From Melioribacter roseus (GTDB lineage: Bacteria > Bacteroidota > Ignavibacteria > Ignavibacteriales > Melioribacteraceae): DNA of 64,000 nucleotides. Positions 2,215-18,204 of this stretch are shown here, piece after piece (within the stretch, counting starts at the first letter, position 1; every line of letters begins with the position of its first letter). The notes below the pieces were generated by a model. It saw nothing but the letters and a program-made list of their open reading frames with translations. It made no database searches and had not been told where the DNA came from. A program made the position numbers and the translations under genes. The stretch is from the NCBI GenBank assembly GCA_020724265.1, contig DYHH01000009.1, forward strand, positions 1 through 64,000. Reading direction: 5' to 3'.

Positions 2215-3252
2215 CTATAACAGATTGACTGCTTCTCTTAAGTTATCCTTCTGCAAATGGGAATAAATTTGAGTTGTTTTAATATTTCCGTGGCCTAGTA
2301 ATTCTTTAACCGCATAGAGAGAAATTCCACGTTGAACAAGAGCAGAAGCAAAAGAATGACGGAGTGTATGGAAATGAATTTTATCATTTAGTTTTGCTTC
2401 TCTTACTGCTTTTTTAAATTGTTTGCTTACAAAATCCTCATTTAATTTTATTCCTTCGTAACGACAATAGACAAGAGTATTTTCAAACCTTCCTAATTGA
2501 TAACGAGTTTGCAGAATAGTTTGTACTTTCTGATGAATAGGAATAATTCTTTCACGTTTATTCTTGGAATTAAATTCCCTTGAGTTTTTTATAGTGATTA
2601 TATTTTGTGTGAAGTCAATCCAATTCCATTTCATATTAACTAACTCACCGAGACGCATACCAGTATAAAAGGCAATTGTGAAAATATCTTTCATTAGCTG
2701 CATTTCAGTATTGTTAAGAATTATAATTAGTTCACTTTCCGAAATAAACACAGGAAAGGATTTCGGAACTTTGGGGGCTTTAATTTTATTGAACGGATTG
2801 TCTTCAAGATAATTCCAAACTACAGCTTTATTAAATGCTGCTTTTAATGTGCGGTGGTAAAGTGACGCTGAATGTTTAGAACTTGCTGAGGCTGAGGATA
2901 TAAACTGATCAATTATTCTTGTTGAAATCTGATTAAGCAGCATATCAGGAATATTCTTTTGTAAAGCCATAAAAGATGGTTTTACAGCTTTCTTAAGATA
3001 CTTTTCCGAGTAAGTATTTCTTACATAAGTTTTATATTCTTCAAAAAAGCTACTGAGTTTTATAGATGCTTTTTTCTCTTTTTGTACTTCTCGTTCATTT
3101 CTCTTTTCTTTCGGTGTGGGGACAAAAGATTTAAGGAATTTCTCTGCCTCCTTTTTGTTGGTTGTCTTAGTAGAAATTTTGGTTCTTTTACCGTTAACAA
3201 AATAAACTAACTGATAGTATCGTCTTTTTGAATTAGGCGGTGTAAGAAACAT
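2215..3252 (-). CDS. Tyrosine recombinase (integrase) of the metal-resistance island
   Basis: This 345-aa phage/ICE-type integrase catalyses site-specific strand exchange. The start at 3252 is preferred over the upstream ATG at 3282 because GGAAGGAG lies 8 bases before it. An N-terminal basic arm-binding part and a SAM-like core-binding domain are followed by the catalytic domain with all expected residues: R in TGMRLGELVNMKW, K near NSKNKRERIIPI, HTLRHSFA, LLGHGNIKTT and the nucleophile Y in QIYSHL. The gene starts about 80 bases from a tRNA-Asp 3' fragment, the usual place for an integrase at the end of an integrated element. It is therefore probably the enzyme that placed the metal-resistance cargo to its left. 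No excisionase is visible nearby. Confidence 0.93.
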   Translation of the reverse strand: MFLTPPNSKRRYYQLVYFVNGKRTKISTKTTNKKEAEKFLKSFVPTPKEKRNEREVQKEKKASIKLSSFFEEYKTYVRNTYSEKYLKKAVKPSFMALQKNIPDMLLNQISTRIIDQFISSASASSKHSASLYHRTLKAAFNKAVVWNYLEDNPFNKIKAPKVPKSFPVFISESELIIILNNTEMQLMKDIFTIAFYTGMRLGELVNMKWNWIDFTQNIITIKNSREFNSKNKRERIIPIHQKVQTILQTRYQLGRFENTLVYCRYEGIKLNEDFVSKQFKKAVREAKLNDKIHFHTLRHSFASALVQRGISLYAVKELLGHGNIKTTQIYSHLQKDNLREAVNLL

Positions 3253-3334
3253 TTTGAACACTCCTTCCGGATGTACCCACAAGTGTACCCACTGCCAAAA
3301 AGCTGGGAATTTACAGCATAAATGAAGGAATGCG

Positions 3335-3381
3335 ACTGTCTGTCACGCAGGAGGTCGCGAGTTCGAGTCTCGTCGGCCCCG
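3335..3381 (+). tRNA. 3' fragment of tRNA-Asp (anticodon GTC) at an island junction
   Basis: From 3335 the sequence folds as the 3' part of tRNA-Asp: anticodon stem 3335-3339/3347-3351 (first pair mismatched), loop CTGTCAC with anticodon GTC at 3342-3344, variable bases 3352-3356, T-arm 3357-3373 with loop TTCGAGT, acceptor strand CGGCCCC at 3374-3380 and discriminator G. No complementary GGGGCCG 5' acceptor strand or clear D-arm lies upstream. The 5' half has been separated, as happens when an element integrates inside a tRNA gene. The restored full gene would be at the other end of the island, left of this window. Confidence 0.75.
3354..3381 (+). repeat. 28-bp direct repeat, copy 1 (tRNA T-arm and acceptor end)
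   Basis: Positions 3354-3381 are repeated exactly at 5648-5675. The repeat covers the last variable-loop bases, the T-arm, the 3' acceptor strand and the discriminator base of a tRNA. Conserved tRNA 3' ends are classical attachment cores for tyrosine recombinases, and an integrase gene lies just to the left. Confidence 0.8.
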
Positions 3382-5647: not shown

Positions 5648-5675
5648 GTCGCGAGTTCGAGTCTCGTCGGCCCCG
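5648..5675 (+). repeat. 28-bp direct repeat, copy 2 (tRNA T-arm and acceptor end)
   Basis: This is an exact copy of 3354-3381: T-stem GCGAG, loop TTCGAGT, CTCGT, acceptor CGGCCCC and G. The bases before it differ from the tRNA-Asp fragment, so only the tRNA 3' end is shared. With copy 1 it brackets a 2.3-kb segment holding the AraC and VOC genes. It is followed at once by a strong terminator, as a real tRNA 3' end would be. Confidence 0.8.
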
Positions 5676-5678
5676 GAT

Positions 5679-5717
5679 AAAAAAAGGAAGTTGCTTTATG
5701 CGACTTCCCTTTTTTTA
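5679..5717 (+). terminator. Strong rho-independent terminator
   Basis: GGAAGTTGC (5686-5694) pairs with GCGACTTCC (5700-5708) around TTTAT. The stem is flanked by A7 on the left and T7 on the right. It lies 3 bases after the second tRNA-like 3' end, so it is probably the native terminator of the tRNA gene whose end is preserved there; the symmetric A/T flanks would let it work in both directions. Confidence 0.88.
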
Positions 5718-5892: not shown

Positions 5893-6777
5893 ATGTATTA
5901 TAGACGCAAAATACTTCTCTCTATTTTAAATAGTTTTGGAGGCAAACTTGAGAAAATACGACTCCAAAAACTACTCTTTCTATTTTGTCAAGAGCAGCGA
6001 AATCCGGTTTATTATTTTGTGCCTTACAAATTTGGATGTTATTCTTTTCAAGCGAATGCCGATCTTAATACAATGAAAAAGTATGAGCAAGTTGATGAAA
6101 GCAATAAAACTTGGCTCTTAAAATCAACTCATAATTATATTCGTGAAATTAAAGATGATGATAGAATCATTCTTTCTCAATTGAAATCAAAGTTTTGGGA
6201 GATGAGTACAGACGATATAATTAAATATACTTATCGAGAATTTCCATTCTTTGCTATAAATAGTATTGTCGCTTCAGATAAATTATCAAAGGAAGAATAC
6301 AATAAAGTTTTGAATGAAAAACAAATTTCAGAACAAGAAGCCTTGTTCACTATCGGTTATGAAGGAATTTCATTAGAAGAGTACTTGCAAAAACTAATTA
6401 CTAACGATATTAAAGTGCTTTGTGATGTTAGAAATTTTCCACGCAGTATGAAATACGGTTTCTCTAAAAATCAGTTAAAAAACGCTTGCGAAGGGCTGGG
6501 AATCATTTATTTCCATCTTCCGAATTTAGGCATCATTTCAGAGAAACGTAAAGAATTGAATACTCAAAAAGATTATAACGTGTTATTCGATGACTATAGA
6601 AAAACCGTACTGAAGAATAATATGAAAGATCAAATATTTATTCTCGAGTTAATAAAGCAATATAAACGAGTTGCAATAACTTGTTTTGAAAAGAACATTA
6701 AACAATGTCATAGGTCTCATCTTGCTTGTTCTTTGACCAAATTAGATGGATGGAATTACGAAGTAAATCATATTTAA
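5893..6777 (+). CDS. Panacea/SocA-like plus DUF488 fusion protein
   Basis: This 294-aa protein has two parts. Residues 1 to about 110 resemble the DUF4065/Panacea (SocA-like) antitoxin-type domain: LEKIRLQKLLFLFCQ, then YYFVPYKFGCYSF. Residues about 148-294 are a DUF488 domain: FTIGYEGISLEEYL, LCDVRNFPRS, FHLPNLG and a C-terminal CFEKNIKQCHRSHLA, where the Cys..CHR residues are the conserved putative active site. Panacea domains are known as toxin-neutralising modules and DUF488 proteins occur in defence neighbourhoods; neither fact proves a role here. The next gene starts one base after this stop codon, so the two are coupled. The neighbouring restriction enzyme supports a defence function. 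Confidence 0.75.
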   Translation: MYYRRKILLSILNSFGGKLEKIRLQKLLFLFCQEQRNPVYYFVPYKFGCYSFQANADLNTMKKYEQVDESNKTWLLKSTHNYIREIKDDDRIILSQLKSKFWEMSTDDIIKYTYREFPFFAINSIVASDKLSKEEYNKVLNEKQISEQEALFTIGYEGISLEEYLQKLITNDIKVLCDVRNFPRSMKYGFSKNQLKNACEGLGIIYFHLPNLGIISEKRKELNTQKDYNVLFDDYRKTVLKNNMKDQIFILELIKQYKRVAITCFEKNIKQCHRSHLACSLTKLDGWNYEVNHI

Positions 6778-6778
6778 T

Positions 6779-7585
6779 ATGCCGTTGAAGAAGGTTTTAA
6801 TAACTGTTAAAACATATCCAACGATATCAAATAGGTATAAAGAACTCGTTTGCACTGCCGGTTTTCTTGAAGATGGAACGTGGATTAGGTTATACCCGAT
6901 TCCATTTCGAAAACTTGATTATATTAAACAATATAAAAAGTATGATTGGATAGAGATAGATTTAGAGAAAAATAAAAAAGACTTTAGACCTGAAAGTTAC
7001 AGACCGACAAACCTCGATCCAGAAATTAAAATAATTGACCACCTTGACACCGCAAGTAACTGGGCAAAACGCAAAAAGATTGTCCTACAAAAAGTATACA
7101 CAAATCTTTCTAAATTAATTAGTGAAGCAAAGGATAAAAACATTGTAACTTCATTGGCAGTATTTAAGCCAACAGAGATTCTTGATTTTATCATCGAAGA
7201 TGATGAAAGGGAGTGGAGTTCAAAAAAGAAGGCAGCTCTTGACCAATGTTTTCTCTTTGAAGAGGATGATAATTTTGAACTTGTAAAAAAGATACCATAT
7301 AAATTTTATTACCGATTTAAAAATGATGCGGGACAAAAATCTACACTGATGATAGAAGATTGGGAAATTGGGGCGCTTTATTGGAACTGCATGGAAAAAT
7401 ATAACGACGAAATTACTGCTTGTAAAAAAGTTAAAGAAAAATATTATGATGATTTTGCAAAGACAAAAGATCTGTATTTGTTTTTAGGCACAACCCAACA
7501 ATATCATTTTGTAAGTCCAAATCCATTTATTATAATTGGTACTTTTCACCCACCGAAGATAGATCAACAAACTTTGTTTTCTTAA
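6779..7585 (+). CDS. Unnamed partner of the DUF488 fusion protein
   Basis: This 268-aa soluble protein has no domain I can name with certainty. The N-terminus (LITVKTYPTISNRYKELVCT) continues through WIRLYPIPFRKLDYI and KYDWIEIDL to a FRPESYRP segment; the ending is FIIIGTFHPP. These aromatic and basic blocks look strongly conserved, as in an RNA/DNA-binding or nucleotide-processing protein, but this is impression only. There is no signal peptide or membrane helix. The ATG follows the DUF488 stop by one base, and its own TAA directly touches the stop codon of the convergent type IIG gene. The tight coupling suggests that the two plus-strand proteins act together. Confidence 0.7.
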   Translation: MPLKKVLITVKTYPTISNRYKELVCTAGFLEDGTWIRLYPIPFRKLDYIKQYKKYDWIEIDLEKNKKDFRPESYRPTNLDPEIKIIDHLDTASNWAKRKKIVLQKVYTNLSKLISEAKDKNIVTSLAVFKPTEILDFIIEDDEREWSSKKKAALDQCFLFEEDDNFELVKKIPYKFYYRFKNDAGQKSTLMIEDWEIGALYWNCMEKYNDEITACKKVKEKYYDDFAKTKDLYLFLGTTQQYHFVSPNPFIIIGTFHPPKIDQQTLFS

Positions 7586-10500
7586 TTACCCTATCAACTT
7601 CTTTACAATTCTATCAATCTCTTTCATTTCTTTGGAAAGGTGTTTTTTAATTTCTACGCGTAGTCGTCCTAAGCGGTTTGCCGTTAAACTATTTTTGGGT
7701 GGATTTGCTTCTAGATATTTTTTCGCTTTTTGATGCGCTTGCTTACTTAATTCAGCAAGCTGTAAATGCTGTTCGTCGTTTTCATCAAATTTCGGGAAGT
7801 AAATATCGAGGATTTTTTTGTGAATATTTCTTGCCCCGAATAATCCAGAGGATTGAAATTCTTTCATAATTAGATTCGGCATTTCTGAACTAAGGAATGT
7901 TGATATGTAATGAGCCTCAGATAAATTTTCAAAATCAAGAAGGTAAATTGCATGGTCAACTATTAATTCCAAATCTAATTCACTTCGTTTAATAACTACA
8001 GAACAAGCATCCGATCCTCGTCCATTATATAACACAACATAAGGTGCATCAAGATTTTGAGAAGTAAGACCACGTTGATAGTTTAATCTTCCATTTGCAG
8101 TTAGATTTTTCGACTTTTCAGTTTTATGAATCTCCCAAATTCTTTCAGCATTCTTAAACCACTTTGCGGCTTTAAGATAACCTTCGCTCATCAGTTCATC
8201 GGCGGTTTTAAGTATAATTTCTTTTTTCTCTTCATCATTTCTTTTAATTATTATCGGCAGAACAACTAAATCCGGTTTGTAAAGGACAAAAGGCAGTATA
8301 CTTTTTGAGAGAGCGGTTCTAAAAAGAAAACGGCTCTCAATTCTGTCTTCAAACTCAATCCCTTTCCAAGGCATTTTACCGTCTCGTTTAACTTCCTCGG
8401 ATGTCTTAATATTGATTATTCTATCGACAAAATCTTTCGGTTCTTCCTGTGCAATTTGAACGAAGTAAAATGAGCGGGGAACAATTGTTGCTCCTTGTCT
8501 GAATCTATCTTTATAAGGATTTACCCCGGTTTGAGATTTATATTTTCTTGTAGTGATGGCAGATGACTTACCTTGCTTTGCATAATATAATTTTGATTCA
8601 GAAATAGATAGATGATCTTTTGCAACCTTCAAATTGCAGTTATGCCGCGGTAACTTTCCTTTTAAGATCAGTCCGTTAACCCCAGACGCGGACGGCTTCC
8701 TGTTTGAATTATCTTTTGCTTTTTCAGTAAAGAATACTGATGAAGGGATTCTAAAAAGCGGAGATACATCGTTCAAATCCCACATCTCTTTTATCTTAAA
8801 TCCTTTTGCATTTCCGCTTCTTGAATTATCGTGATGATCGGCGCTGAATAAACTTCTCGGCAGTACAAAAGCTAATTGAGCATTGTCTTTTAAGAAATAA
8901 CTGCTGCAGTAAGCTAAAAATATTGCCGCAATTTCAAGATGAGGAAAGTTAGCCACGCGTTCCGGCTTTACCTCATATTTTTCTGCAAGTTCATTCAGCG
9001 TATTTTGATATTCTTCATTTTTTATCGAACTATAAGTAAACCACGGCGGGTTCCCTATTACGTAATCAAATTTGTTTGAAAGAAAATAAGGTTTGTAAAG
9101 ATTCTGTACGATAAATTTCCAAATGCTGTCCCGTCCGTGCTGTTTAACTTTTCTGAGACTTTGGTATATCTTATAAAAACTTTCGATTACCTGTTTATTA
9201 AAGCCGCCATTCTTAATTTGCTTTCTTAAAACATTTCCAAAGGTTTCGAGAGTAGCAGGTTTACCGCCAAATGTTTGCTCTGCTAATTCTTCACAAACTT
9301 CTAAGGATGAATCAAAAACTTTTACGTCTTCCAAAATCTGAGAACTTAATTCAAGTATTTCTTTATCAATAGTCATCCTAAAATTTTTCCCGAATAAATC
9401 TTCAACTCCATCGGGTGCAAGAAGAGTATTTGCTAAAATGATTTTAAGATGAACCGGGTTCTTTGATTTTACTACATCGTTGCCGAGTGCAAGCAGCATA
9501 TTAGTTTTTGCAATTTGAACCGAGAGCGGGTGAATGTCGATTCCGTAGATTGAACTGTTGATTTCTTCAACCGTGATTCCCGGGTTTAATTCTCTGAATC
9601 TATGAACTGCGGCTATAAGAAACGAACCGCTTCCGCAAGCCGGATCTAAAATTCTATCCCCTTGCTTAAATTCAAACTCACTAACTATTCTCTCACAGAG
9701 CCAATCGGGTGTATAATATTCACCTAGCGTATGCCGTGTATCAAGATCGATTAATTCTTGATAAACCCCTTTGAGAATATCTTCATCAACATTGTGGAAA
9801 TCGAAAGTTGAAACTTCCTGTGCAATAACTCTAAACATATTCTTCAGCGCAATAAAATCACGTTCGTTCTTAACCCAATGAAAGAAATCCTCATCTACAA
9901 AATTTCTGATATTATATTTATTAAATATTGTGCCGTCTATAATTCCTTTCAATTCGGCATCATCAATATAATCATCATTACTAACCACGGCGTAAGCTAA
10001 CAGCTTAGAAAAAACACTTAGATAAGTGTGAATTAAGAAATTGTTTTCGGTTGCATCAAAAGAGCCGTAGGCAATACTTAAGAATTTACGCCATTGTTCA
10101 TATGCAACCTGTACTTCACCGTATTTCTTAGCACTTTTAAAATGAGAAGATAGAATTCTGAAAGATTCGATAAAAACATTACTTTGATATCCGAAAGCTT
10201 CTTCAATTCTGCTTAATGTTGCTTTAACTTTTTCTTCTTTAAAGAGAAAGCGGTCAATCCAATAATAAAAATCATCTGCATTCTTCTCGGTAAGCGTAAA
10301 GGAAGTGCTTTTTACCTCGTTTAAAATTAGTTCGTGTTCCTGCAGATGTTCGATGTTTTCGATGCAGTCAATATCGGGGGCAAAAACTTTCCAATTAATA
10401 AAATCGGATGCAATAAGCGTGAAGTTATAACCCTCACCGCTTTTCATTAATCCGAGCAAATACCCGGCAAGCTGTTCTTTAGCGTGATTTAATGTAAGCT

Positions 10501-10753
10501 TTAGATCATTTTCGAATTCGATTAGAACTCGATTGTAAAGAGTGTCGGCACTTCCTCTATGTAATTTATCCGCACGAGGAATGTTCACAATTGTTTTTTC
10601 TGCACCGAGTGTGATTTTATCGACTTCACTTAAAATTTCTTTATCATTTGCGTAAAGTCTGTTTAGCAAATCTTTGAAAGCTTCTTTCTTTGTAGATTCC
10701 TTGTTGGCGGATTTAACTTTTTGAAGATATTCTTGAATAAGTTTTGTTTTCAT
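7586..10753 (-). CDS. Type IIG restriction-modification enzyme (N6-adenine methyltransferase/nuclease)
   Basis: This 1055-aa single-chain enzyme is expected to cut DNA and methylate adenine at the same recognition site. An N-terminal nuclease-like region includes SADTLYNRVLIEFENDLK (about residues 68-85), where a PD-(D/E)xK site is expected. A helical connector leads to the methyltransferase core with DTRHTLGEYYTPDW, motif I DPACGSGSFL (about residue 370) and catalytic motif IV NPPW (about residue 570). The C-terminal third should be the target-recognition domain; its sequence specificity cannot be read by eye. The gene is intact and ends exactly at the stop of the opposite-strand partner gene. 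No separate specificity or nuclease subunit is nearby. Confidence 0.9.
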   Translation of the reverse strand: MKTKLIQEYLQKVKSANKESTKKEAFKDLLNRLYANDKEILSEVDKITLGAEKTIVNIPRADKLHRGSADTLYNRVLIEFENDLKLTLNHAKEQLAGYLLGLMKSGEGYNFTLIASDFINWKVFAPDIDCIENIEHLQEHELILNEVKSTSFTLTEKNADDFYYWIDRFLFKEEKVKATLSRIEEAFGYQSNVFIESFRILSSHFKSAKKYGEVQVAYEQWRKFLSIAYGSFDATENNFLIHTYLSVFSKLLAYAVVSNDDYIDDAELKGIIDGTIFNKYNIRNFVDEDFFHWVKNERDFIALKNMFRVIAQEVSTFDFHNVDEDILKGVYQELIDLDTRHTLGEYYTPDWLCERIVSEFEFKQGDRILDPACGSGSFLIAAVHRFRELNPGITVEEINSSIYGIDIHPLSVQIAKTNMLLALGNDVVKSKNPVHLKIILANTLLAPDGVEDLFGKNFRMTIDKEILELSSQILEDVKVFDSSLEVCEELAEQTFGGKPATLETFGNVLRKQIKNGGFNKQVIESFYKIYQSLRKVKQHGRDSIWKFIVQNLYKPYFLSNKFDYVIGNPPWFTYSSIKNEEYQNTLNELAEKYEVKPERVANFPHLEIAAIFLAYCSSYFLKDNAQLAFVLPRSLFSADHHDNSRSGNAKGFKIKEMWDLNDVSPLFRIPSSVFFTEKAKDNSNRKPSASGVNGLILKGKLPRHNCNLKVAKDHLSISESKLYYAKQGKSSAITTRKYKSQTGVNPYKDRFRQGATIVPRSFYFVQIAQEEPKDFVDRIINIKTSEEVKRDGKMPWKGIEFEDRIESRFLFRTALSKSILPFVLYKPDLVVLPIIIKRNDEEKKEIILKTADELMSEGYLKAAKWFKNAERIWEIHKTEKSKNLTANGRLNYQRGLTSQNLDAPYVVLYNGRGSDACSVVIKRSELDLELIVDHAIYLLDFENLSEAHYISTFLSSEMPNLIMKEFQSSGLFGARNIHKKILDIYFPKFDENDEQHLQLAELSKQAHQKAKKYLEANPPKNSLTANRLGRLRVEIKKHLSKEMKEIDRIVKKLIG

Positions 10754-12338: not shown

Positions 12339-13559
12339 GTGAGACAATTTAGTCTCTTGATTGTGCTGTTGTTTATTGCAATTACAACTTCGGCACAAAA
12401 TAGATTAACAGTTGAGGATGCACTGAAACTCGCATTCGAAAATAATATTGAACTTCAAAAACAATCGGCAAAACTAAACAGAGCCGAAACAGAAATTGGT
12501 GAATCGGCACGGCTGCCGAATCCGACTTTTTCTTATTCGAGGGAGGATCTTGAATCGGGAAATTTATCATATAACGAATGGATAGCCTCCGGCACACTGC
12601 CTCTTAATTTTCTATGGAATAGATGGAGCCGGATTAACTCAAAGGAAAAAGCAAAAGAAGTCGAGCAGCTTTTGTACGATCGTCTAAAATCGCAAATAGC
12701 CGCCGATGTCCGCTCTGAGTACTTAGCTTACCATCTCTATTCTAAATTGACATCGGAGTTTAAAAACTTTCTTGGACGACTAGATGAACTTGCACGGATT
12801 TCAGAAAACCGCTTAAACGAAGGCGACATTTCCGATTACGAGCACAGAAGAATCTTAGTAGAGATTAATAAGATCAAATCAATAGTCACTGAAGTAGAAC
12901 TTAAGAGAAACAAGTATTTCAACAACTTGAGTTTATTGATACGTTTGAGTGATAACGAAAAAGTTAAATTAGTTTCCTTCGATTATTCACTTCAACTTGA
13001 AACTGAGCTTAATCAATTGTCTTCAACCGCACTCGAAAACAGGAAAGATCTGCTTGCTTATAAAATGATGATCGAAAGTGAAGAATCCGCTCTCTCATAT
13101 AATAAAATGCAGATAATACCGGATATGTCTTTCAGTGCCGGTTATAAAGAACAGGCTGATAATTTCAACGGAACAGTTCTTCAATTCAATATTGCTGTTC
13201 CTTTATTCGAAAGAAACCAAACGGGTATTGAAAAATCGGAAATTCAACTTGATCTGCTGAACAAGGAACTACTTTTCCTCAAAGAAAAGATAAAGCGCGA
13301 AGTTTCCGAAGCTTACAATCGATTCGCTTCACAGAAAAGGATTTATGATTCTACAAAAGAGAATAATCTTGAATCAATCTTTTCAACCGCAGCTTATTCT
13401 TACGAGCAAGGTGAAATTCCGCTGGTTGATTTCATTGACGGAATGAATGCTTACGTGGATGGTTTGATTCTTCAAACGGAATTGGAAATTGAAGTCTACT
13501 CAAACTTTTTCCGTCTCGAAGAAGCAATTGGAAAAGAAATAACAAAAATTGGACAATAA
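12339..13559 (+). CDS. czcC: TolC-family outer-membrane channel of a metal efflux pump (CzcC/CusC-like)
   Basis: This 406-aa outer-membrane protein begins with GTG at 12339 after GGAGGA. A signal peptide (FSLLIVLLFIAITTSA) precedes the mature AQNRLTVEDALKLAFENN, the standard first helix of TolC-type proteins. Two repeated helical halves follow, ending in the conserved AYSYEQGEIPLVDFIDGMNAY region. It should form the trimeric exit duct for the pump made by the next two genes. The low similarity to named CzcC proteins prevents a firm substrate call; the operon with a histidine-rich protein suggests zinc, cobalt, nickel or cadmium. Confidence 0.9.
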   Translation: MRQFSLLIVLLFIAITTSAQNRLTVEDALKLAFENNIELQKQSAKLNRAETEIGESARLPNPTFSYSREDLESGNLSYNEWIASGTLPLNFLWNRWSRINSKEKAKEVEQLLYDRLKSQIAADVRSEYLAYHLYSKLTSEFKNFLGRLDELARISENRLNEGDISDYEHRRILVEINKIKSIVTEVELKRNKYFNNLSLLIRLSDNEKVKLVSFDYSLQLETELNQLSSTALENRKDLLAYKMMIESEESALSYNKMQIIPDMSFSAGYKEQADNFNGTVLQFNIAVPLFERNQTGIEKSEIQLDLLNKELLFLKEKIKREVSEAYNRFASQKRIYDSTKENNLESIFSTAAYSYEQGEIPLVDFIDGMNAYVDGLILQTELEIEVYSNFFRLEEAIGKEITKIGQ

Positions 13560-13579
13560 AAAGGAGCACTGTAAATAAA

Positions 13580-15085
13580 ATGTTAAGACTAACAAAAATT
13601 ATTTTGCTTTCGGCAGTATTGACTCTCCTCGCTTCGTGCGCTCACGACCACAATCACGAGACCGAAGAAGAAGGTCACGAGCACGGAGCAATTTCAGTGA
13701 CACAATACACAGATTCAACTGAAATATTTATGGAATATTCGCCTCTGCTCGTTAATCAGGAAGCGGAGTTTTTAATTCATCTTACCGATTTGAAAAACTT
13801 CAAAGCAGTAAACGAGGGTAAGTTGACCGCTGAGTTTGTTAATGAAAACGGAAACAAAGTAACTGTTACAGAAAACGAACCGGCAAGAGACGGAATTTAT
13901 ATTCCTTCGGTAGTGTTTGACAACGCCGGAAATTATAGAATGACTATCACATTGAAAGGTGAACAAGTCTCGGATGTAATTGTTGTTGATGATGTTAAAG
14001 TTTATGCAAACTCATCCGAACTTCCTCACATACACGAAGAGGAGTCATCCGATATTTCATTTCTTAAAGAACAGCAATGGAAAATTGAATTTGCAAACGC
14101 ACCGGTGCGGAAAAGAATGATGCAGAAATCCGTCCTTGCAACAGGTGAAGTAAAACCGAAACCGGAAAATTATGCAAAGGTTACTGCCCCGGTTGGCGGA
14201 ATTGTTTTATCGAAAAACAATACAACTCTGAAATCAGTCGGCGATTATGTTAAAAGCGGTGAAGTATTATTAACAATTTCACCATCGGCTGATGCAAGCA
14301 TCAACATTCAGCAAATTAAAAATCAATTTTTGCTTGCGAAAGCTGAATATGAAAGAGTTCAAAATCTTTTTGAAAGAAAAGCAGTACCTCAAAAACGCTT
14401 GGATGAAGCACGGTCTGATTTCGAAGCAAAAAGAGCCAGTTACAATTCGATAAGCGATCAAATAAAAATTACCAACACCGGTTATGAAATTCTTTCGCCA
14501 ATCAGCGGATACGTTGAAACGCTCAACTTTAGTCTAGGCGAAAATCTTAAATCGGGCGACGAGTTATTTACAATTGTAAATCCCAAAAGATTAATACTGC
14601 AGGCAAATGTACCTTCTGCTCACAGTGAAAATGTTATGACTTCCGAGGATGCTTCATTCCGCATTGAAGGATTTGGTAAAGAGTATTCTATAGAAGAATT
14701 GAACGGAAGAAAAATAGCCGTTGCCGCCGGACTTAATCAAACTAATAGAACTATTCCGGTTTATTACGAATTCAACAATCCTCAAAATAAAATTAAGATC
14801 GGAATGTTTGCGGAAGTATTTGTGAAGATCGGCGTAGCTGAAGAATCGTTAGCCATCCCCGAGAGTGCCGTCGTAAATGAAGACGGACTTCATACTGCTT
14901 ATGTCCAGTTGGAAGGTGAAGCTTTTGAAAAGAGAATCTTGAAAACCGGTATTATCGATCAAGGTTATGTTCAAGTTCTCGAAGGTTTATATGAAGGAGA
15001 GCGGGTTGTTACAAAGGGAGCGTACCAGGTAAGACTCGCTGCGTTATCACCGGAATCTGCAATCGGACACGGACACGTTCACTAA
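13580..15085 (+). CDS. czcB: RND efflux periplasmic adaptor lipoprotein (CzcB-like)
   Basis: This 501-aa membrane-fusion protein has lipobox LLASC at about residues 17-21 and then a histidine/acidic run (AHDHNHETEEEGHEHG) for metal capture. Residues about 40-140 form an Ig-like domain seen in Bacteroidetes CzcB proteins. The usual adaptor parts follow: the lipoyl halves (ATGEVKPKPENYAKVTAPVGG ... ILSPISGYVETL) around a short coiled-coil hairpin, then a beta-barrel domain and a membrane-proximal domain ending GIIDQGYVQVLEGLYEGE. The adaptor links the inner-membrane pump to the outer-membrane channel. It lies 20 bases after czcC and 17 bases before czcA. Confidence 0.92.
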   Translation: MLRLTKIILLSAVLTLLASCAHDHNHETEEEGHEHGAISVTQYTDSTEIFMEYSPLLVNQEAEFLIHLTDLKNFKAVNEGKLTAEFVNENGNKVTVTENEPARDGIYIPSVVFDNAGNYRMTITLKGEQVSDVIVVDDVKVYANSSELPHIHEEESSDISFLKEQQWKIEFANAPVRKRMMQKSVLATGEVKPKPENYAKVTAPVGGIVLSKNNTTLKSVGDYVKSGEVLLTISPSADASINIQQIKNQFLLAKAEYERVQNLFERKAVPQKRLDEARSDFEAKRASYNSISDQIKITNTGYEILSPISGYVETLNFSLGENLKSGDELFTIVNPKRLILQANVPSAHSENVMTSEDASFRIEGFGKEYSIEELNGRKIAVAAGLNQTNRTIPVYYEFNNPQNKIKIGMFAEVFVKIGVAEESLAIPESAVVNEDGLHTAYVQLEGEAFEKRILKTGIIDQGYVQVLEGLYEGERVVTKGAYQVRLAALSPESAIGHGHVH

Positions 15086-15102
15086 AAGTTTGAGGAAAAA
15101 TT

Positions 15103-18100
15103 ATGCTTGATAAATTAATAAAAATTGCTCTTCAGAGAAGATTGGTGGTTCTCGTAACCGCAATTCTTCTACTGATATTCGGAACATACATTACGCTTGA
15201 TCTCCCGGTTGATGTCTTTCCGGATCTCACTGCACCGACTGTTACAGTTTTAACCGAAGCACACGGAATGGCAGCCGAGGAAGTTGAGATGCTCGTTACA
15301 TTTCCGATCGAAACTTCGGTTAACGGTGCAACCGACGTACGACGCGTTCGTTCATCAAGTGCAGCAGGCATTTCAATCGTCTGGGTTGAGTTTGATTGGG
15401 GGACCGATATTTATACAGCAAGACAAATTGTTAACGAAAAACTGCAGACTGCTTCAACAGCGTTGCCCGAAGATGTTGATAAACCGGTACTTGCACCGAT
15501 CTCGTCTATTATGGGTGAGATTATGCTTATTAGTGTGAGTATTGATGAATCTCAGAATACCGAAAACTTAACCGAGATGGATTTGCGCACAATAGCCGAT
15601 TTCGATATTCGAAGAAGGTTATTATCGATAAACGGCGTCTCGCAAGTAATTCCAATAGGCGGTGCGGTAAAGCAATATCAAATATTAGTGTCACCGGAAA
15701 AACTTTCATCTTATAACTTAACACTGAACGAAGTCTTACACGCAGCCGAAGAAGCAAACGAAAATTCATCCGGCGGTGCTTATATGGATTCCGGCAGCGA
15801 ATATTTAATTAGAGGAATCGGGCGGGTGCAGAATCTTGAAGATATCAAGAACAGTGTTGTTGCAATCAAAGACGGCGTTCCGATTCTATTACAAGATGTT
15901 GCCGAAGTTCAAATCGGACCGGCAACAAAAATCGGCGACGGTTCTGCGAATGCAACACCGGCAGTTATTTTAACTGTTCAAAAGCAGCCGCAGACAAACA
16001 CAATCGAGTTAACGGAGAAGATAGAAACTACTATAGACGAAATTCAAGCAAGTCTGCCTCCCGGGGTTACAATAGATACTGAAATTTTCAAGCAGTCCGA
16101 TTTTATTCAAACTGCTATCAGCAACGTAATTGATGCGCTACGCGACGGTGCGCTTTTGGTCACGATAGTAATCTTCATGTTCTTGTGGAATTTCAGAACT
16201 ACATTTATCTCTGTTCTTGCAATTCCGATATCAATCATCATAACAATTTTTGTTTTTCAGCTTTTCGATATAATGATAAACACGATGACGCTCGGAGGTA
16301 TTGCAATTGCTATCGGGGCATTGGTGGATGATGCAATTATCGATGTGGAAAATGTTTTCCGGCGGCTTAAATTAAACAGACAGCTTCCGAAAGATGAAAG
16401 AGAAAACTCAATAACCGTGATTTATGAAGCTTCGAGAGAGATCAGAGCTCCGATGGTGAATGCAACACTAATTATAGTAGTTGTGTTTTTACCGCTCTTC
16501 TTTTTAAGCGGTGTCGAAGGAAGACTACTCAGACCGATGGGTTACGCTTACATAACTTCAATTTTTGCATCGTTATTTGTCGCACTTACTGTCACTCCCG
16601 TTTTATCGTATTACTTACTTTCAAAAAGTAAATCGATGAACGAAGGAAATGATTCATGGATAGTACGTAAACTCAAACATCATTATGAGAAGACTCTCAA
16701 CTTTACATTGGAGCATCCGAAGACTATTGCTGCTTCATCAATCGTAGCTCTAGTGATAACACTACTTGTTGTGCCATTTTTAGGTAGATCGTTTTTGCCA
16801 GAGTTTAATGAAGGATCGCTTACGTTAAGCATTGTTACTTTACCCGGAACTTCTTTAGATGAATCAAATAAGATCGGTCAGTTAGCCGAAGAAATTATTC
16901 TCTCATTTCCGGAAGTGCAATCAACCGCTCGCAGAACCGGAAGAGCAGAACTTGACGAACACGCGCAGGGTGTAAACGGCGCAGAACTCGATGTTCGTTT
17001 TGAATTGGAAGATAGAAGCAAAAAAGAATTTATAAATGAACTTAGAAATGCTCTATCTGTTTTACCTGGTACTAACGTAACTATCGGTCAGCCAATCGGA
17101 CATAGAATTGACCATATGCTTTCCGGTACGAGAGCAAACATCGCAGTAAAGATATTTGGTCAAAACTTGCCGCAGCTTAGATCAATTGCAGCGAGTGTCA
17201 AAGACGAAATGACAAAAGTAGAAGGCGCGGTTGATGTTGCTGTCGATCAAGAAGTTGAGGTGCCGCAAACGAAAATCAAATTCAACAGAACCGCAATGGC
17301 GCAGTACGGAGTTACGGTCGGGCAGCTTGCCGATGCAATCGATATTGCATTCAACGGCGAAGTTGCTTCCGAGATTAGAGAAGGTCAAAAGTCATTCGAC
17401 TTAATTGTTAGATTTAGTGAGAACAATCGCGGCAATATTCACAAAATTGAAAGCGCGTTGTTCGATACACCGATCGGAGCAAAAGTACCCCTTTCGCAAT
17501 TAGCGGAAGTTGTAAATGAAAAAGGACCGAATCGTATCAGCCGTGAAAATGTACAGCGAAAAATTGTGGTACAGTCAAACGTTTCGGGAAGAGATTTACG
17601 AAGTGTAGTTGACGAAATGCGGGCAAACATTGAATCGAATATCGAGCTTCCGCAAGGTTACTTTGTTGAGTTCGGCGGACAATTTGAAAGCGAGCAGGAA
17701 GCAACAAGAATTATTACTTTGCTCAGTTTGGTTTCAATCGGATTTATATTTCTCATTCTTTATTTACAGTTCGGCAATATCAAATATTCTTTATTCATTT
17801 TAGTCAATTTGCCCCTTGCGTTAATAGGTGGAGTTTGGGCAGTCTATTTCAGCGACGGCGTAATCAGCGTTGCATCATTAGTTGGATTTATTACTTTATT
17901 CGGTATTGCAACGCGTAACGGTATTTTGATGATAGCTCATTACAAACATCTGCTCGAAGAAGGCAAAGAATTTTCACAGGCTGTGATTCAAGGTTCGCTC
18001 GAGAGATTGAATCCTATTTTGATGACCGCTATTACAGCCGGACTCGCACTGGTGCCGCTTGCTCTCGGGGCAGGCGATCCGGGCAAGGAAATCGAAGCGC

Positions 18101-18204
18101 CGATGGCAATTGTAATTCTCGGCGGCTTATTTACATCCACCACTCTGAATATGATAGTAGTACCAAGTTTGTTTCATAAATTCGGCAGGGTAAAAGAATT
18201 ATGA
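15103..18204 (+). CDS. czcA: RND heavy-metal efflux pump (CzcA/CusA family)
   Basis: This 1033-aa proton-driven inner-membrane pump has the normal RND layout: TM1, a large periplasmic loop starting DLPVDVFPDLTAPTVTVLTEA, TM2-6, a second loop and TM8-12. The TM4 signature is GALVDDAIIDVENVFRRL, which carries the proton-relay aspartates. This form differs from the CzcA (VDGAVV) and CusA (VDAAIV) versions and resembles the HME5 subgroup as I remember it, so the metal cannot be assigned. Full length and intact. GAGGAAAAATT precedes the ATG. Its stop overlaps the next gene start (ATGA), indicating coupling. Confidence 0.93.
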   Translation: MLDKLIKIALQRRLVVLVTAILLLIFGTYITLDLPVDVFPDLTAPTVTVLTEAHGMAAEEVEMLVTFPIETSVNGATDVRRVRSSSAAGISIVWVEFDWGTDIYTARQIVNEKLQTASTALPEDVDKPVLAPISSIMGEIMLISVSIDESQNTENLTEMDLRTIADFDIRRRLLSINGVSQVIPIGGAVKQYQILVSPEKLSSYNLTLNEVLHAAEEANENSSGGAYMDSGSEYLIRGIGRVQNLEDIKNSVVAIKDGVPILLQDVAEVQIGPATKIGDGSANATPAVILTVQKQPQTNTIELTEKIETTIDEIQASLPPGVTIDTEIFKQSDFIQTAISNVIDALRDGALLVTIVIFMFLWNFRTTFISVLAIPISIIITIFVFQLFDIMINTMTLGGIAIAIGALVDDAIIDVENVFRRLKLNRQLPKDERENSITVIYEASREIRAPMVNATLIIVVVFLPLFFLSGVEGRLLRPMGYAYITSIFASLFVALTVTPVLSYYLLSKSKSMNEGNDSWIVRKLKHHYEKTLNFTLEHPKTIAASSIVALVITLLVVPFLGRSFLPEFNEGSLTLSIVTLPGTSLDESNKIGQLAEEIILSFPEVQSTARRTGRAELDEHAQGVNGAELDVRFELEDRSKKEFINELRNALSVLPGTNVTIGQPIGHRIDHMLSGTRANIAVKIFGQNLPQLRSIAASVKDEMTKVEGAVDVAVDQEVEVPQTKIKFNRTAMAQYGVTVGQLADAIDIAFNGEVASEIREGQKSFDLIVRFSENNRGNIHKIESALFDTPIGAKVPLSQLAEVVNEKGPNRISRENVQRKIVVQSNVSGRDLRSVVDEMRANIESNIELPQGYFVEFGGQFESEQEATRIITLLSLVSIGFIFLILYLQFGNIKYSLFILVNLPLALIGGVWAVYFSDGVISVASLVGFITLFGIATRNGILMIAHYKHLLEEGKEFSQAVIQGSLERLNPILMTAITAGLALVPLALGAGDPGKEIEAPMAIVILGGLFTSTTLNMIVVPSLFHKFGRVKEL

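Follow-up and report, generated by a model that had tools for sequence, protein, structure and literature searches.

The window analysed here is a stretch of 64,000 nucleotides from a Melioribacter roseus contig (GenBank assembly GCA_020724265.1, contig DYHH01000009.1, positions 1 to 64,000). It contains two adjacent genes, hereafter A and B, in which the stop codon of A and the ATG of B are separated by a single base (Table 1). Protein A carries an N-terminal domain with a putative Panacea/DarG-type fold joined to a DUF488 domain, and protein B is a predicted dual-OB protein. The PADLOC models PDC-M19A and PDC-M19B covered the two proteins from end to end, and since both matches were full-length, we assigned the pair by its sequence profiles to the catalogued phage-defence candidate PDC-M19 and not to a new system. 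The PADLOC-DB entry for PDC-M19 is a name without a description, and no paper naming PDC-M19 was found in our literature search. According to a 2026 survey of archaeal immunity, PDCs derive from a "guilt-by-embedding" approach, and experimental validation is pending for most of them (PMC12988326). That the pair is a candidate anti-virus system was already known from PADLOC. New in this study are the assignment of B to the DuOB type, the exchangeability of the Panacea-like part of A, the union of PDC-M19 with a second candidate, PDC-M45, and the one-sided decay of B.

Table 1 Features of the gene pair and its surroundings in the window.
Feature	Position	Strand	Evidence
Tyrosine integrase, beside the left tRNA-derived repeat	2215..3282	-	Pfam Phage_integrase 7e-35
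att-like direct repeat, copy 1, 3' end of tRNA-Asp(gtc)	3354..3381	+	Repeat and genome match
att-like direct repeat, copy 2, 3' end of tRNA-Asp(gtc), 217 bp before gene A	5648..5675	+	Repeat and genome match
Weak terminator-like hairpin upstream of A, near the level expected by chance	5686..5708	+	
Gene A (PDC-M19A), putative Panacea/DarG-type and DUF488 fusion, 294 aa	5893..6777	+	PADLOC 1-294/294, 8e-120; AF2 pLDDT 97.0
N-terminal domain of A, residues 1-138, putative divergent Panacea/DarG-type fold	5893..6306	+	hhalign, structural match
DUF488 domain of A, residues 148-294, conserved D178/R180 and C264-x-E266-x5-C272-H273-R274	6334..6774	+	Pfam PF04343 2.4e-25
Gene B (PDC-M19B), predicted dual-OB (DuOB-type) protein, 268 aa	6779..7585	+	PADLOC 1-269/269, 1.4e-126; AF2 pLDDT 93.8
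Type IIG restriction enzyme, neighbour, outside the module	7586..10753	-	PADLOC 5.9e-82

The pair lies next to signs of integration. The direct repeat, 28 bp long, corresponds to the 3' end of a tRNA-Asp(gtc) gene that is intact and located elsewhere in the same genome, and ARAGORN found no intact tRNA within the window. The initial annotation had taken such tRNA-linked scars, together with the neighbouring restriction enzyme, as support for a defence island. The scars proved real, given the tRNA match and the adjacent tyrosine integrase. The type IIG enzyme did not stand as a conserved partner: a related gene was found near the pair in only 2 of the 33 other loci, within the stretch examined. 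A functional link between the two was dropped for this reason, and the enzyme is probably an independent neighbour. In the window, the type IIG gene runs convergent to B, and the stop codons of the two abut at 7585 and 7586 with no base in between.

On a larger scale, the pair is located between cation-diffusion-facilitator-like genes (337-2027) and a CzcCBA-like heavy-metal efflux operon (12339-18204), both named by eye. On Massilia and Pseudomonas plasmids, too, the pair has heavy-metal or copper genes at its flanks.

Domain composition of proteins A and B

The N-terminus of A had been described as Panacea/SocA-like, a claim that stood as a remote relation and not as a Pfam assignment. Pfam Panacea (PF13274) gave no match to this region even at an E value of 5. 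A profile of 21 A relatives aligned with one of 19 Panacea proteins at 96.6% probability (hhalign, E = 6e-10), compared with at most 0.5% for control pairings of the same profiles. The modelled domain found its best structural match in the toxin-antitoxin complex DarTG of M. tuberculosis (chain 7yk3_B; Z 12.3, 3.2 Å over 135 residues). Profile and predicted fold together suggest that the A N-terminus is a distant relative of Panacea (DUF4065, SocA) lying below Pfam detection.

Panacea domains are known antitoxin modules, and their signature motif GPV is reported to be critical for neutralisation by a PanA antitoxin (PMC8832971). At the GPV position the window's A reads G-C-Y-S. Among 74 A relatives, the reading was GC[YF]S in 57, and the GP of the motif was kept in only nine and lost in 65. 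The A N-terminus further differs from Panacea and PanAT proteins in its fusion to DUF488 and in being swappable for other domains. With DarTG, only the fold of one chain is common: the NCBIfam DarG score of 14.3 bits was far below the cut-off of 250, A has no macrodomain, and B had no DarT match in Pfam, NCBIfam or PADLOC. In both DarTG and A, a bipartite protein could link a partner-binding domain to an enzyme.

The remainder of A had been read as a DUF488 domain with an intact Cys..CHR site, and the profile search bore this out. Pfam PF04343 matched residues 161-279 with a score of 90 bits against a curated cut-off of 22.2, and residues D178, R180, G213, C264, E266, C272, H273, and R274 were invariant across 77 relatives. 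The invariant D..R and C-x-E..C-H-R residues suggest that the domain is catalytic. Fold comparison ended in a tie between tetrapyrrole methylases (CobF/CbiL, Z about 9-10) and cysteine phosphatases (Z 8-9), and calling the domain "cysteine phosphatase-like" is only a guess. Sequence searches of the PDB with A, B, and their profiles returned nothing useful.

The literature on DUF488 yielded one relevant paper, in which an archaeal DUF488-HTH fusion of the ParB-CTPase fold bound CTP (PMC12704722). The A protein of a Saccharolobus plasmid, with its ParB-HTH-DUF488 architecture, resembles this protein, whereas the window's A has no ParB domain.

Protein B by itself had no Pfam, NCBIfam, or PDB match, and the initial annotation described it as a protein without a named domain but with conserved blocks. 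The blocks were confirmed: relatives of B share strongly conserved stretches, and P14, E22, C25, A27, R37, P40, D68, R70, E72, R98, D194, E196, and G237 were invariant across 71 sequences. The apparent want of relatives was not. Pfam DuOB (PF22557) matched 3 of 31 B relatives, with a best E value of 4.6e-4, and the window's B fell below detection. A profile of B aligned with a profile of typical DuOB proteins at 72.9% probability (hhalign, E = 3e-5), compared with at most 0.1% for unrelated controls.

Predicted structure pointed in the same direction. The neighbours of the B model in Foldseek and VIA-align 2 were tandem-OB DNA-binding proteins with Z scores of about 7-8, including RPA, telomere-end binders, the HIN-200 domains of IFI16, p202, and p204, and others. 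HIN-200 and RPA tandem-OB chains aligned over B residues 1-258, which would correspond to two OB folds. Z scores in this range are middling by the tool's scale, so they back the fold and do not show DNA binding. Taken by profile and model, B appears to belong to the DuOB (dual OB) type as a divergent member whose predicted fold resembles HIN-200 and RPA domains, and it may bind nucleic acid. It differs from typical DuOB proteins in lying below Pfam detection and in having D-x-R-x-E-S and D-W-E motifs of its own. Our literature search found no papers on the Pfam DuOB family.

In the B proteins of four other loci (L051, L055, L058, and L059), a zinc-knuckle-like C-x4-C-[RK]-x-H stretch precedes the D-W-E motif; the window's B does not have it.

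Pairing of the dual-OB protein with DUF488

We collected relatives of B from a set of 84,980 species genomes, which yielded 33 loci, from IMG/VR, which yielded 67, and from plasmids, phages, and 296 genomes belonging to the phylum of the window. Pairing was counted over the 121 loci whose B sequences were distinct; bacteria, archaea, plasmids, and phage contigs are all represented among them. A DUF488 gene adjoined B in 117 of these loci, and the other four were cut by contig ends. Pairwise divergences of A and B were strongly correlated (Mantel r = 0.87, a value reached by none of 2000 permutations), and r remained about 0.85 within each main gene order. Given this recurrence and correlated divergence, the adjacency of A and B is not due to chance. 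The coupled two-gene unit proposed from the window alone is thus a recurrent and co-inherited one. One exception came from outside the 121-locus set: the Sulfolobus islandicus plasmid pSOG2 has B, with DUF488 nowhere on the plasmid.

Three gene orders were found. DUF488 preceded B in 76 loci, B preceded DUF488 in 4, and the two genes were convergent in 37. The order in the window, co-directional and abutting as in type II toxin-antitoxin pairs, belongs to the first of these. In the convergent loci, about a third of all loci, DUF488 stands alone. Among the convergent loci (L057, L061, L063, and L094-L131), most pairs overlap tail to tail by 28-62 bases, most commonly by 44, 29, or 47 bases, a conserved antisense overlap. 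Two representative convergent pairs left no trace at the DNA level in the E. coli genome collection.

The N-terminus of A was Panacea-like in 75 sequences. Elsewhere it gave way to an XRE-type HTH on a Streptomyces plasmid, to ParB_N plus HTH_ParB on a Saccharolobus plasmid, and to HTH_59 on a viral contig, or was missing altogether. The constant partner of B is therefore DUF488 and not the Panacea-like domain. The initial annotation had used the Panacea domain as a marker of a toxin-antitoxin system, a use that is hard to maintain given the standalone DUF488 genes, the other N-terminal domains, and the rarity of the GP residues. A classical PanAT pair, in which A would neutralise a toxin B through its Panacea domain, is consistent with the Panacea-like fold found by profile and structure, with the A-first order of the majority of loci, and with the decay of B alone described below. 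Since the Panacea-like part is exchangeable or absent, a pure "Panacea antitoxin plus toxin" scheme is too narrow to be general, and neutralisation by Panacea cannot be the general mechanism. With the signature motif mostly lost and convergent orders common as well, we consider this explanation very improbable.

The association is one-way: B is accompanied by DUF488, but DUF488 genes of more distant kinds (L175-L182) were found with no dual-OB gene in the surrounding 1.5 kb or so. Sulfolobales plasmids carry a third small gene after B (L059:8861-9349; L189:5849-6352). The product of the L059 gene had no Pfam match, and an E-x-D...E-x-K pattern like that of PD-(D/E)XK nucleases was seen in it by eye.

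The same partnership was found in a second PADLOC candidate. Typical DuOB proteins of the same phylum adjoined DUF488 genes in 5 of 6 loci, forming DuOB-DUF488-DUF488 operons in which the DUF488 genes are PADLOC PDC-M45B and PDC-M45C. The PDC-M45A model had no match in 198 genomes of this phylum. PDC-M45 is thus the same DuOB and DUF488 partnership as PDC-M19, differing in its two separate DUF488 genes, its typical DuOB protein, and the lack of a Panacea-like domain. These operons were found independently of the assignment of B and therefore support B as a DuOB-type protein. Typical and divergent members of the dual-OB family alike are accompanied by DUF488.

Around the 33 loci, near neighbours (132 genes) matched 268 PADLOC families, compared with 53 for genes more than 5.5 kb away (128 genes), a tally of families and not of genes, in which one methyltransferase can match many. 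Restriction-modification and other PADLOC families were better represented among near neighbours than among far genes. Together with the PDC-M19 assignment, this is in line with the candidate defence role first proposed for the pair. The mobile setting was also borne out beyond the integrase and repeats of the window: the pair was found on conjugative plasmids, on IMG/VR contigs, and in Gordonia phages, and many copies were chromosomal. Its distribution was patchy: it was present in 20 of the 296 phylum genomes and absent from the sister species examined.

In the Gordonia phages, the pair belongs to the lysogeny region, where an HTH "immunity repressor" flanks it on one side and the integrase on the other. 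The repressor in one of them (gene 44, L055:5018-5968) stands directly before B and has a weak HTH match and no DUF488; the DUF488 protein of this phage is encoded by the convergent gene 42.

The many plasmid and prophage loci would also suit a cargo that helps plasmids, islands, and prophages to replicate, partition, or remain stable and has no part in defence. The ParB-HTH fusion on an archaeal plasmid and the single-stranded-DNA-binding proteins encoded a few genes away on two plasmids fit such a role in element maintenance or DNA metabolism. It is improbable in our estimate, as many copies of the pair are chromosomal and PADLOC families are enriched near the pair over genes at least 5.5 kb away.

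Decay of the dual-OB gene and candidate roles of the pair

In 10 loci, B was broken and DUF488 was intact. The lesions were nonsense codons, frameshifts, and one IS insertion. There was no locus in which A alone was broken, and both genes were broken in two. If either gene were equally likely to break, 10 one-sided breaks out of 10 would have a probability of about 0.001 (one-sided), or about 0.01 when scaled for the shorter standalone DUF488. Draft metagenome assemblies account for some of the broken B genes. Because B served as the search query, a bias against finding broken B genes is expected. The one-sided decay suggests that B is the component that is costly or can be dispensed with.

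In the IS case, a Rhizobium phaseoli plasmid (L193), B is split into two parts (1896-2168 and 7980-8609) by an insertion with IS66-type genes, next to an intact DUF488 gene. Four loci of the first count of broken genes were dropped, because the frame was intact (L045), the gene ran into a contig end (L025), the case was marginal (L032), or DUF488 was intact (L118).

We tentatively favour, at somewhat below even chances, the reading of the pair as a mobile two-protein conflict module, most likely anti-phage, with B as the costly nucleic-acid-directed component and A as its DUF488 controller. A would hold B in check, with the D..R and C-x-E..C-H-R site as the catalytic or control part, and the exchangeable N-terminus of A may bind B or an operator or tune the trigger. 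Upon infection or entry of an element, A would loosen its control, or B would encounter the nucleic acid it targets, and the outcome would be a block of growth or of foreign DNA. The logic would be toxin-antitoxin-like and the outcome anti-phage activity. Several results count against this reading. The convergent order in about a third of loci means that expression is not coupled as it is in most toxin-antitoxin operons, and pSOG2 indicates that B alone is tolerable unless the host supplies the partner. The breaks seen in draft assemblies, the PADLOC tally by families, and the absence of GPV from most relatives weigh in the same direction.

A rival reading does away with the toxin-antitoxin logic. 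In a sensor-effector defence, B would sense foreign, single-stranded, or modified nucleic acid in a HIN-200-like manner and activate DUF488 as the effector enzyme, and the N-terminus of A would only regulate expression. The predicted likeness of B to tandem-OB DNA-binding proteins, DNA-sensing HIN domains among them, would suit this scheme, as would the enzyme-like invariant site of DUF488; convergent gene orders need no operon coupling, and PDC-M45 carries two DUF488 genes per DuOB. However, OB-fold matches at Z 7-8 may reflect nothing beyond a shared arrangement, a caution given by the tool itself, and the loss of B with DUF488 intact is the reverse of what would be expected of a toxic DUF488 effector. 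On folds alone, a sensor-effector system is nearly as likely as the conflict module with B as the costly component, and it fits the one-sided loss of B less well; overall, we hold it possible but rather unlikely.

The placement of B in the DuOB superfamily, the constancy of DUF488, and the tie to PDC-M45 turn two anonymous candidates into one testable two-part design. A bolder proposal, which we regard as unlikely at present, is that DuOB-DUF488 systems, comprising PDC-M19 and PDC-M45, form a distinct class of prokaryotic immune or abortive systems spanning bacteria, archaea, plasmids, and phages. In such a class, a HIN-200-like dual-OB protein would attack or sense nucleic acid, DUF488 would be the cysteine-dependent enzyme that reverses or controls this action, and a DarG/Panacea-type docking domain would have been added in the Bacteroidota branch. 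If the two-part design works as proposed, a share of the DUF488 family, which still bears the label "of unknown function", would gain a function, and HIN-200-like dual-OB folds would be in use in prokaryotic immunity.
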